A DNA stretch of 64,000 nt from Phytoactinopolyspora alkaliphila (GTDB taxonomy: Bacteria > Actinomycetota > Actinomycetes > Jiangellales > Jiangellaceae), in assembly GCF_010550695.1 (NCBI RefSeq), contig NZ_JAAGOB010000004.1, forward strand, positions 310,001 to 374,000, read 5' to 3'. Below are positions 19,747 to 56,977 of the stretch, piece after piece. The notes beneath the pieces were generated by a model that saw only the letters and a program-made list of their open reading frames with translations, was not told where the DNA came from and ran no database searches. Every line of letters starts with the position of its first letter. Position 1 is the first letter of the stretch. The position numbers and the translations under genes were made by a program.

Positions 19747-19855
19747 TTACTCATCCAGAGGGGCAGAGGGACCGGCCCGGTGAAGCCCCGGCAACCACCC
19801 GCAACACGGCGGGTTTGGTGCCAAGTCCGGCCCGTTCGCGGGGAAGATGAGGAGG
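19747..19855 (+). promoter_or_regulatory. SAM riboswitch (SAM-I/S-box type)
   Basis: The leader contains the S-box core in order: AGAGGGACCGGCCCGGTGAA, then GCCCCGGCAACC, then a variable hairpin (CCGC..GCGG), GGTGCCAAGTCCGG and a closing P1 strand. P1 pairs CTCATC (19750-19755) with GATGAG (19846-19851). The P1 strand overlaps the region holding the thrC ribosome-binding site GAGGAGGG, so ligand binding likely blocks translation start directly. The set of conserved segments is specific for S-adenosylmethionine aptamers. Confidence 0.93.
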
Positions 19856-19867
19856 GATCTCGTCGCC

Positions 19868-21145
19868 ATGACCATCACCCAGGAACCCGAAACCACGAGT
19901 GCCGGCAAGAACCGCCCCGATCTGGGGCGTGCCACGCACCTGTCATGTCGTGAGTGCGCGGCCACCGTCGAACTCGGACCCCACTACGCGTGCATGGAGT
20001 GTTTCGGTCCGCTCGAGGTCGCGTACGCCTATGGCACAGTGACACGCGAGTCCATCGAGGCCGGCCCCGCGTCGATCTGGCGGTACAAGGATCTGCTGCC
20101 GGTACCGTCCAACGTCGCCGACATCCCCAACACCGAGCCGGGCTTCACGCCGCTGCTGCGTGCCGACAATCTCGCCCGCGAGCTTGGTATGAAGACTCTG
20201 TGGGTCAAGAATGACGCCGCCAACCCCACGCACTCCTTCAAGGACCGCGTCGTGGCCGTGGCGCTGGCCGCCGCCCGAGAGCTCGGGTTCACCGTGCTGG
20301 CCTGCCCTTCCACGGGGAATCTCGCCAATGCCGTCGCGGCCGCCGCCGCGCGGGCCGGCATCCGCAGCTTTGTGTTCATCCCGAGCGACCTCGAGCAGCA
20401 GAAGATCGTCACCAGTGCCGTGTACGGCACCACGCTCGTCGCGGTGGAAGGCAATTACGACGACGTCAACCGGCTCGCCTCCGAGCTTGCCGGGCAGCAT
20501 GAGGACTGGGCTTTCGTGAACGTCAACGTCCGGCCCTACTACGCGGAGGGCTCGAAGACACTGGGCTACGAGACCGCCGAGCAGCTCGGCTGGCGGCTGC
20601 CACGCCAGGTGGTCATCCCGGTGGCCAGCGGCGCCCAGCTCGTCAAGGTGGACAAGGCGTTCGGGGAACTGGTCTCGCTCGGCCTGGTCGAGGGCGAGCA
20701 ACCGGCCATCTTCGGCGCTCAGGCCGAGGGGTGCTCGCCGGTGTCCACGGCTTTCAAGGAGGGCCGCAACGTGGTCAAGCCGGTCCGGCCGTCCACCATC
20801 GCGAAGTCGCTGGCCATCGGCAACCCCGCCGACGGTCCGTACGTTCTCGACATCACCCGCCGCACCGGGGGCGCTGTCGAGGACGTCACCGACGACGAGG
20901 TGGTGGAGGGGATCCGGCTGCTGGCCCGCACCGAAGGCGTCTTCGCTGAGACCGCGGGTGGGGTTACGGTCGCCGTGCTGGCCAAGCTGCTGCGTGAGGG
21001 GCAGCTCGACCCCGGCGCCGAGACCGTCATCTTCAACACCGGCGAGGGCTTGAAGACCCTCGACGCCGTCGCGCCCGTCGTCGGGCCGGCAGGAACCATC
21101 GAACCGACCACCGAGGCATTCCGCGCCCTCGTCCCGGAGGCATAG
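19868..21145 (+). CDS. thrC: threonine synthase-like PLP enzyme
   Basis: Threonine synthase converts O-phosphohomoserine to threonine using PLP. The 425-residue protein opens with a zinc-ribbon-like motif, cysteines at about 27, 30, 42 and 45 (CREC...CMEC). The fold type II core follows: NPTHSFKDRVVAVAL with the PLP lysine near 125, CPSTGNLANAVAAAAARAG, and NTGEGLKTLDAVAPV near the end. ATG 19868 is chosen because GGAGGG lies just upstream and the in-frame ATG at 19847 is inside the riboswitch. Control by SAM is unusual for threonine supply. Together with the sulfur carrier two bases downstream it suggests a link to sulfur amino acid synthesis. Confidence 0.92.
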   Translation: MTITQEPETTSAGKNRPDLGRATHLSCRECAATVELGPHYACMECFGPLEVAYAYGTVTRESIEAGPASIWRYKDLLPVPSNVADIPNTEPGFTPLLRADNLARELGMKTLWVKNDAANPTHSFKDRVVAVALAAARELGFTVLACPSTGNLANAVAAAAARAGIRSFVFIPSDLEQQKIVTSAVYGTTLVAVEGNYDDVNRLASELAGQHEDWAFVNVNVRPYYAEGSKTLGYETAEQLGWRLPRQVVIPVASGAQLVKVDKAFGELVSLGLVEGEQPAIFGAQAEGCSPVSTAFKEGRNVVKPVRPSTIAKSLAIGNPADGPYVLDITRRTGGAVEDVTDDEVVEGIRLLARTEGVFAETAGGVTVAVLAKLLREGQLDPGAETVIFNTGEGLKTLDAVAPVVGPAGTIEPTTEAFRALVPEA

Positions 21146-21147
21146 AC

Positions 21148-21435
21148 ATGAGCGTTGCTGTACGAGTCCCCACCATCCTGCGCACCTACACGAAGGGCGA
21201 GTCGGACGTGAGCGTGGACGTCGACGAGGGAGCCACCCTCGGGGACGTGGTGAAGGCGCTGGACGCCGCCTACCCCGGCATCGGTGCGCGGATCCTCGAC
21301 GACACCGGGGAGATCCGCCGATTCGTGAACGTCTACGTCAACGACGACGACGTCCGGTTCGACTCCGGCCTGCAGACCCCGACGCCCTCCGGCGCCAAGA
21401 TCTCGATCATCCCCGCGGTCGCCGGCGGCTGCTAG
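21148..21435 (+). CDS. ubiquitin-like sulfur carrier (CysO/MoaD/ThiS family)
   Basis: 95 residues with a beta-grasp fold: VAVRVPTILRTYTKGESDVS, then GATLGDVVKALDAAYPGIGA, FVNVYVNDDDVRF and the C-terminal IIPAVAGGC. Carriers of this family receive sulfur as a thiocarboxylate on a terminal Gly-Gly. Here one extra cysteine follows the di-glycine, so a Mec+/JAMM-type protease would be needed to expose it, as known for QbsE- or HcyS-like carriers. The stop of thrC lies two bases upstream, so the two genes are co-translated under the SAM riboswitch. No protease or activating enzyme lies in the window. Confidence 0.9.
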   Translation: MSVAVRVPTILRTYTKGESDVSVDVDEGATLGDVVKALDAAYPGIGARILDDTGEIRRFVNVYVNDDDVRFDSGLQTPTPSGAKISIIPAVAGGC

Positions 21436-22066
21436 CCGAACCACCACCTCCGTTCGCCACCACCGCAGTTCGTCACCTGATCGTCGATGTGTCGCCTGAT
21501 CGCTTGGCGAAAGACGATCAGGTGACCTTGTTGCGATGGGCGTAGCCGGTACGACACCTGATCGCCTCCACGATGTGGATACGAAGTGATCAGGTGGCAA
21601 AGGACGCGAAGGAATGGGCGTTGGGTCATCTGATCCAAAGGGCCGCCGGGTGTGAAACATCGATCGATGTTCCCGTGGATGACTGTGAGCGTTGACTACG
21701 GCACGTGTGCTGGTGGCGCACTCGTGGTGATCACCGTGCGAGTCTGACCGGTGGGGACGTGGTCGTGGTTATCCTTGTGTGAATATCAGCCGGTGGTTTG
21801 GCTGGCAGGGTGGCCGTGGGATGGGCCGTGTGAGGAATGCAGGCTCGAGGCGGTCGGAATTCACTCGGCTGGTCCCACGTCGTCGGCATCCGATCCTCAC
21901 CGGCAGTCGGTCGATTCCTAGACGGAGCGGCCACCGTTGTCAGCTTCCGTCTCGTTGGTGCGGCTCTGCGCTAGCACACCACCGCACACGATCTGTGAGC
22001 GTGTCAGGTGACCAACCACGTCGAAGCACCGTGACTACGTCATCTGATCCAAGGGCGTGAGCCGGG
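21436..22066. other. 630-bp repeat-rich intergenic region
   Basis: No convincing gene is present: the frames are short and compositionally unlike their neighbours. It holds a cluster of CACCTGATC/GATCAGGTG hairpins at 21472-21596. GTCATCTGATCCAA(A)GGG also occurs as a near-exact direct repeat at about 21625 and 22038. The rest shows nothing I can name. Confidence 0.6.
21472..21596. repeat. CACCTGATC hairpin cluster
   Basis: GTCACCTGATCGTC (21472-21485) pairs exactly with GACGATCAGGTGAC (21513-21526), and a further CCTGATCG copy lies between them. CACCTGATC (21555-21563) pairs with GATCAGGTG (21588-21596). These are two tandem hairpins of one motif family. The first, 36 bp past the carrier stop, may also end the thrC transcript. 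Confidence 0.75.
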
Positions 22067-56754: not shown

Positions 56755-56787
56755 ATTGAGTACACGGGAAAGGAGGTGGTCTCAGGA

Positions 56788-56826
56788 ATGCATAGTTCTT
56801 GGACTCGTGAGGTGGCTGCTCGTTAG
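56788..56826 (+). CDS. 12-residue ORF (possible leader peptide)
   Basis: ATG to TAG encodes MHSSWTREVAAR. AAAGGAGGTG, one of the strongest anti-rRNA matches in the window, lies ten bases upstream. A structured RNA and an intrinsic terminator follow. No other gene lies on this strand for the next 1.1 kb, so it is not a conventional attenuator for a nearby operon; pdxH runs against it. It may encode a functional micropeptide or recruit ribosomes to control termination. Confidence 0.6.
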   Translation: MHSSWTREVAAR

Positions 56827-56831
56827 CCGCC

Positions 56832-56977
56832 CTGCTCGACGCAGGACCTGGTGACACCTGGTTCGCCGGCCGGACGGCTGGCAATCTCGAGCAGTCACCC
56901 GGCCCGTGGGCTCCCGGGGCTTAGTCCTCCTGGGCCGTGTCATCCGACACGGAAGCAGCCCACGGGCCGCTTTTTTG
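56832..56977 (+). ncRNA. structured RNA ending in intrinsic terminator
   Basis: CTGCTCGA (56832-56839) pairs with TCGAGCAG (56887-56894), closing a branched segment with GC-rich inner helices (CCGGCCGG). The terminator follows. A promoter and a 12-codon ORF precede it. I do not recognise a known Rfam class. The compact promoter-sORF-structure-terminator layout argues for an independent transcript of about 200 nt. Confidence 0.5.
56901..56977 (+). terminator. intrinsic terminator of the short RNA
   Basis: GGCCCGTGGGCT (56901-56912) pairs exactly with AGCCCACGGGCC (56957-56968). An inner CCGTGTC/GACACGG hairpin sits in the loop. Six T residues follow at 56971. The strongest T-tract terminator in the window. 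Confidence 0.9.

Follow-up and report, generated by a model that had tools for sequence, protein, structure and literature searches.

A SAM riboswitch upstream of a threonine synthase-like gene and a sulfur carrier gene in Phytoactinopolyspora alkaliphila: a probable homocysteine synthesis unit

Why would an actinobacterium place a gene that resembles threonine synthase behind a SAM riboswitch, and follow it at a distance of two bases with a sulfur carrier? The locus that raises this question lies in a stretch of 64,000 nucleotides from Phytoactinopolyspora alkaliphila (the window; positions 310001-374000 of contig C28), in a genome of 5.5 Mb that is 99.98% complete. The initial annotation had described a SAM aptamer, a thrC-like gene with a CxxC/CxxC N-terminus and, two bases on, a carrier ending in AVAGGC, all of which were confirmed by Rfam model RF00162, the reading frames and Pfam. 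It had also proposed a role in homocysteine supply, and here the core of the idea fits the published MetM/MetO route and is very probably right, whereas the weight it gave to the Gly-Gly-Cys ending did not hold. In our judgement it is highly probable that the unit is metM-metO, a SAM-switched system for homocysteine synthesis from O-phosphohomoserine and carrier-borne sulfur, and the pair is best read as another member of the route described in Streptomyces in 2024. The features of the locus are as follows.

19748..19853, + strand: SAM-I (S-box) riboswitch aptamer (RF00162, 89 bits)
19850..19855, + strand: Shine-Dalgarno sequence AGGAGG (sequence read against the Rfam alignment; arrangement counted in relatives)
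19868..21145, + strand: metM, a PLP enzyme resembling ThrC, proposed to act as O-phosphohomoserine:carrier-thiocarboxylate homocysteine synthase (reading frame, profile and family comparison)
19946..20002, + strand: N-terminal CxxC...CxxC (C27, C30, C42, C45), zinc-ribbon-like (conserved in members)
20240..20242, + strand: codon of Lys125 in SFKDR, expected PLP lysine (130 of 130 members)
21148..21435, + strand: metO, beta-grasp sulfur carrier ending AVAGGC (reading frame, Pfam ThiS, match to a solved sequence)
21424..21432, + strand: C-terminal Gly-Gly plus one residue, Cys (sequence, compared across carriers)

The probable metM-metO unit and its riboswitch

Hasebe et al. reportedly showed in 2024 that MetM of Streptomyces albulus, together with thiocarboxylated MetO, turns O-phosphohomoserine into homocysteine. 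According to the available portions of PMC12172450, the only paper that our literature search for MetM/MetO or a SAM-switched threonine synthase returned on the subject, S. albulus MetM is a homocysteine synthase that has a SAM riboswitch upstream and relieves methionine auxotrophy, and its carrier gene is named metO. The P. alkaliphila locus likewise combines a ThrC-like enzyme, a carrier gene and an upstream SAM riboswitch, and by analogy this precedent would favour the metM-metO reading; it differs in that P. alkaliphila also possesses MetX-MetY and an extra Cys after the Gly-Gly of its carrier. The MetM of S. apocyni (L158), the one named Streptomyces member among the loci compared, shares 67% identity with the window protein and is accompanied by both aptamer and carrier. 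The available parts of PMC3766115 and PMC12452182 make no mention of the pair.

The aptamer is complete, spanning positions 1-108 of the 108 in the RF00162 model, and scores well above the gathering threshold of 44.4 bits (E 8e-20). It was the sole RF00162 match found in the 5.5 Mb genome on scoring 150 of 335 first-look candidates, and that no other SAM-I match turned up in this search speaks for the metM-metO reading. The metX-metY locus (L024) returned no Rfam match, and hence there is no sign of riboswitch control there. Elsewhere in the window Rfam also recognized the actinobacterial sRNA Ms_IGR-5 (56762-56975; RF02471, 99.9 bits). Among relatives of the locus, Rfam placed a SAM aptamer at 23 of the 29 best-scoring loci of the phylum (17/20 + 6/9), and a model derived from 18 of these sequences, that of the window included, recovered one at all of 100 further loci, three of which are duplicates.

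The metM reading frame begins at ATG 19868 and stops at 21145; an alternative in-frame ATG at 19847 falls inside the P1 strand of the aptamer and is the less likely start. The first four bases of AGGAGG lie within the 3' strand of helix P1, which ends at 19853. This tight spacing recurs in 99 of 100 relatives, where an in-frame start codon follows the aptamer at 7-19 nt (median 15), L081 being the single locus that yielded none. In 76 of the 99 a Shine-Dalgarno-type purine motif starts within the last eight aptamer bases. GAGGA and GAGGG were accepted as such motifs, and the conserved P1 strand often contains them in any case, so that in some of these relatives the functional Shine-Dalgarno may instead be another purine run lying a few bases 3' of the motif counted. 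A simple scan found no transcription terminator between aptamer and gene, where there is little room for one. The short distance points to translational control, as judged from sequence, and since the Shine-Dalgarno overlaps P1, little space is left for a terminator and none was found, SAM binding should occlude the Shine-Dalgarno directly. As regards a competing hairpin between the 3' strand of P1 and the start codon, at least four P1 bases pair downstream in 46 of 58 folded leaders (that of the window and 57 taken from the 100 aptamer hits), but with a mean z of only -0.57 relative to mononucleotide shuffles we make no claim for such a structure.

The metO gene opens at ATG 21148, two bases past the metM stop, and encodes 95 amino acids (Pfam ThiS, 56 bits). 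Of the solved sequences, chain 3dwg_C comes closest (E 6.6e-23); its deposited name is '9.5 kDa culture filtrate antigen cfp10A', and we take it to be mycobacterial CysO. No convincing + strand gene follows metO for some 600 bases, and the genes upstream of the aptamer are, from their translations, presumably trehalose genes, such that the unit looks like metM and metO alone. A cluster of short palindromic repeats based on CACCTGATCG/CGATCAGGTG lies 3' of metO: the three exact copies in the window, against 0.31 expected, all lie at 21468-22055, and the same-genus locus L064 likewise carries three copies behind its metO.

We infer the chemistry of the pair, its response to SAM and its partnership with MoeZ and Mec+ along the following lines. 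When SAM is low, P1 would open and leave the Shine-Dalgarno free, and both MetM and MetO would be made; when SAM is high, P1 would close over the Shine-Dalgarno and translation would drop. The MoeZ-type protein of the genome (ThiF + rhodanese) would adenylate the Gly-Gly end of MetO and convert it to the thiocarboxylate. Before this step the extra Cys would have to be cut away, most probably by the single JAMM protease of the genome, Mec+ from the cysO locus. MetM would bring O-phosphohomoserine to a PLP-vinylglycine intermediate, as in threonine synthase, which would be attacked by the thiocarboxylate sulfur of MetO rather than by water, yielding homocysteine that is either released at once or initially bound to MetO as an adduct.

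Two other carrier-based systems resemble this scheme. In HcyS/HcyD of Wolinella succinogenes a protein thiocarboxylate likewise leads to homocysteine and a residue after Gly-Gly is trimmed by a JAMM protein, but the enzyme uses O-acetylhomoserine and is not ThrC-like. The CysO-CysM-Mec+ system of Mycobacterium tuberculosis shares a Gly-Gly thiocarboxylate carrier, a PLP enzyme whose substrate is an O-phospho amino acid and MoeZ-type activation, as set out in the available portions of PMC3227635, but converts O-phosphoserine to cysteine, and its counterparts in P. alkaliphila lie at a separate locus.

The carrier, its C-terminus and loci lacking metO

MetM-type proteins, called at E <= 1e-100, were found in 74 of 198 genomes of the phylum, a set from which the host's own canonical ThrC is excluded because it scores E = 5.8e-47. 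Within the family they occur in 21 of 22 genomes, the lone miss being a genome that is 81% complete. The nearest named relatives, among the best 80 of 585, are those of Jiangella ureilytica (87%) and Phytoactinopolyspora halophila (85%). Conservation was counted over 130 loci (the window and 129 relatives). From the phylum these comprise the 29 highest-scoring of 73 relatives, and from the named genomes the best 80 of 585, and the counts consequently lean towards close relatives. Three pairs among the 130 are identical in sequence (L065/L084, L066/L082 and L070/L083).

A carrier adjoins MetM at 117 of the 130 loci. In 92 of these the protein stops exactly at Gly-Gly, in 12 it ends in GGC, and the remaining 13 bear different tails such as R, A, CA, SR or longer ones; without the repeated sequences these figures become 114 carriers at 127 loci, with 90 GG, 11 GGC and 13 other. 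The initial annotation had made much of the terminal Cys, and had expected it in close relatives and a JAMM protease to trim it. Its retention is contradicted by close relatives, including one of the four in the same genus (three end in GGC and one in GG), while only 1 of 16 other family members has it; and with 92 of 117 carriers ending in Gly-Gly, a need for trimming is not a general feature of the pair. On a quick tree of MetM, in which 40 of 127 inner branches are poorly supported, Gly-Gly and Gly-Gly-plus-tail interchange at least 18 times. At the DNA level the ends read GGC TGA versus GGC TGC TGA/TAG, which suggests why the Cys comes and goes: repeatedly gained and lost in a manner that resembles stop-codon drift, it is ruled out as a functional feature, and from these sequences it is apparently an incidental one-codon extension. 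In P. alkaliphila itself the Cys would have to go before activation, and Mec+ is the sole JAMM candidate found. A few MetO proteins carry long tails after Gly-Gly (15 residues in L137, 10 in L115 and 9 in L150) and should make good substrates for JAMM trimming.

The 13 MetM loci that lack an adjacent carrier count against the metM-metO reading and deserve a closer look. Among their hosts are Pseudonocardia (for example Pseudonocardia xinjiangensis), Lentzea, Actinokineospora, Actinomycetospora and two Nocardioides; at three of these loci (L089, L091 and L129) MetM is followed by what we take, from its translation, to be a groEL-type gene. A tblastn search with MetO at E 0.1 gave no match in any of the 13 loci, while two positive controls matched, and adjacency of MetM and carrier changes at least six times on the quick MetM tree. 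Each of the 13 genomes gave as its top carrier match a CysO with a CysM-type gene next to it, and in 11 of them a JAMM gene is within the same CysO locus. In G154 the carrier and the JAMM gene share a contig at a distance of about 1.3 kb, whereas G227 has its cluster distributed over two contigs, with the JAMM gene on L182 and the CysM-type gene on L176. An additional, more distant carrier is present in four of the 13 genomes (L177, L180, L181 and L183). Because a CysO sits beside CysM in every one of these genomes, MetM may share it, and one carrier common to cysteine and homocysteine synthesis is the simplest reading of these loci.

A JAMM protein accompanies MetM in the wider phylum as well. 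At E <= 1e-3 Prok-JAB was matched in 74 of 74 MetM genomes versus 70 of 124 others, and at E < 1e-9 in 72 of 74 versus 49 of 124, kinship being ignored in both comparisons. As most of the MetO proteins examined need no trimming, this association would fit a need for Mec+ that goes beyond trimming. Taken a step further, MetM could be carrier-flexible and MetO a dispensable duplicate of CysO, the lineages lacking metO would draw on CysO, and Mec+ would be obligatory, releasing homocysteine from its carrier adduct. We put this forward tentatively, as a possibility somewhat on the doubtful side; an obligatory Mec+ would explain why Prok-JAB is found in all 74 MetM genomes even though most MetO proteins end in Gly-Gly.

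The same 13 loci could be taken as proof of principle that MetM simply uses free sulfide, with MetO a helper or the partner of another enzyme, and PLP enzymes related to MetM do accept sulfide. Yet each of the 13 genomes has a CysO, next to a CysM-type gene, that might take the place of MetO; together with the strong Prok-JAB excess in MetM genomes, this makes the sulfide account unlikely.

Threonine synthase likeness and the remainder of the host genome

MetM matches Pfam PALP (239 bits) and also the NCBIfam thrC model TIGR00260, at 282.1 bits against a cut-off of 167.1, which counts against the metM-metO reading. The canonical ThrC of the same genome scores 284.8 bits, so nearly the same that TIGR00260 does not separate the two. 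The homologs from Microcystis aeruginosa, 51.6% (MetM) and 47.25% (MetO) identical to those of S. albulus, also have an adjacent carrier but no SAM riboswitch; in vitro, as reported in the available portions of PMC12172450, the enzyme makes and deaminates threonine, while homocysteine formation was not clearly demonstrated; according to that paper, it does not appear fully functional as a MetM in the cell. This activity, too, weighs against homocysteine synthesis, and raises the alternative that the window protein is a second threonine synthase or a bifunctional synthase/deaminase, with the carrier a mere neighbour serving another client.

The residues of MetM point the other way. Its four N-terminal cysteines, which presumably bind zinc, are conserved (C27, C30 and C42 in 129 of 130 members, C45 in 128), and Lys125, whose role as the PLP lysine we take from the fold family, is present in 130 of 130 by construction, as members were located via SFKDR. 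All 130 members have L152, R222, Y225 and A253-S254-G255. At the corresponding positions of five solved threonine synthases, an HMM alignment read by eye shows T, N, R and G-N-A (in one enzyme G-N-L). The Thr of the solved enzymes follows STGN or STGD and the Arg comes from SVNPxR (SLNSLR in one), a stretch one residue shorter; the Thr after STGN/STGD, the SVNPxR Arg and the GNAGN/GNLGN loop are all absent from MetM. The differing positions, we assume, line the active site. The comparison with true threonine synthases that the initial annotation had called for thus separates MetM from all five, and these conserved residues and the spread of MetM through the family both favour the metM-metO reading.

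Seven MetM relatives were detected in the genome at E <= 1e-5, none closer than 36%. The closest sits in a hom-thrC-thrB operon on contig C8 and is the canonical threonine synthase, from which MetM is distinct, so that the suggestion that the window might hold the only thrC falls away. Five more threonine synthase-like paralogs (31-34% identity; contigs C12, C31 and C6; L007-L011) were seen, two of which (L007 and L009) also possess the four N-terminal cysteines. With a canonical thrC already in place, control by SAM that would fit methionine, the residues of the solved enzymes replaced in every member and a carrier adjacent in 117 of 130 loci, we regard a second threonine synthase as quite improbable.

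The separate hom-thrC-thrB operon, Mec+-CysO-CysM cluster, other carriers and MoeZ-like protein likewise support the metM-metO reading. The single Prok-JAB match in the genome is Mec+, which precedes CysO and CysM on contig C30, and this CysO ends in AVAGGA; MetO is not beside Mec+/CysM, its place there being taken by that carrier. Altogether the genome holds four ThiS-family carriers, namely MetO, CysO and two elsewhere; of these two, one has a TPP riboswitch at a distance of about 1.2 kb, and the other ends in PPFAGG and may be MoaD. The possibility raised in the initial annotation, that the window carrier supplies cysteine synthesis beside a separate cysM, fails on this gene content: that MetO is a spare CysO is highly improbable, for although the two are 50% identical, share the same Gly-Gly stretch and could both use the MoeZ-type protein, CysO has its own Mec+/CysM cluster, and MetO stands behind MetM in 117 of 130 loci, most with a SAM aptamer on MetM.

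The genome check that had been suggested for a second thrC, metB/metY/metZ-type genes and a JAMM gene thus returned a canonical thrC, one JAMM gene and a metY-type gene together with MetX. MetX and MetY are side by side on contig C10, contig C23 encodes a cystathionine beta-synthase and a cystathionine gamma-synthase-type protein, and a third PF01053 protein is on contig C2. That the host already possesses MetX-MetY and a cystathionine gamma-synthase-type protein counts against the metM-metO reading, and with MetX-MetY present metM-metO would be a second homocysteine route in this organism. Across the phylum MetX is rarer where MetM occurs (17 of 74 MetM genomes versus 55 of 124 others; Fisher p 0.0035, kinship ignored), which favours the reading; MetX was called at E <= 1e-20, at which no match reaches the model's own cut-off, and the host MetX passes two sister models.

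Implications for sulfur amino acid synthesis

To the route known from Streptomyces this locus and its relatives add coexistence with MetX-MetY, the tight spacing of aptamer and start codon, a dispensable terminal Cys and MetM lineages lacking metO. Neither the aptamer-to-start spacing in relatives nor the metO-less MetM loci were found in print in literature searches that covered sources other than the text of Hasebe et al. 2024.

A protein that the standard model names threonine synthase is thus probably a methionine enzyme. The same likely holds for its relatives in 74 of 198 genomes of the phylum, where annotations and metabolic models may err at this step. With this pair methionine synthesis would depend on sulfur carried by a protein, as cysteine synthesis does, and if MetM does prove carrier-flexible, one carrier, one MoeZ and one Mec+ would feed both cysteine and homocysteine. 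The loci lacking metO make it a testable question whether a single carrier serves both amino acids.
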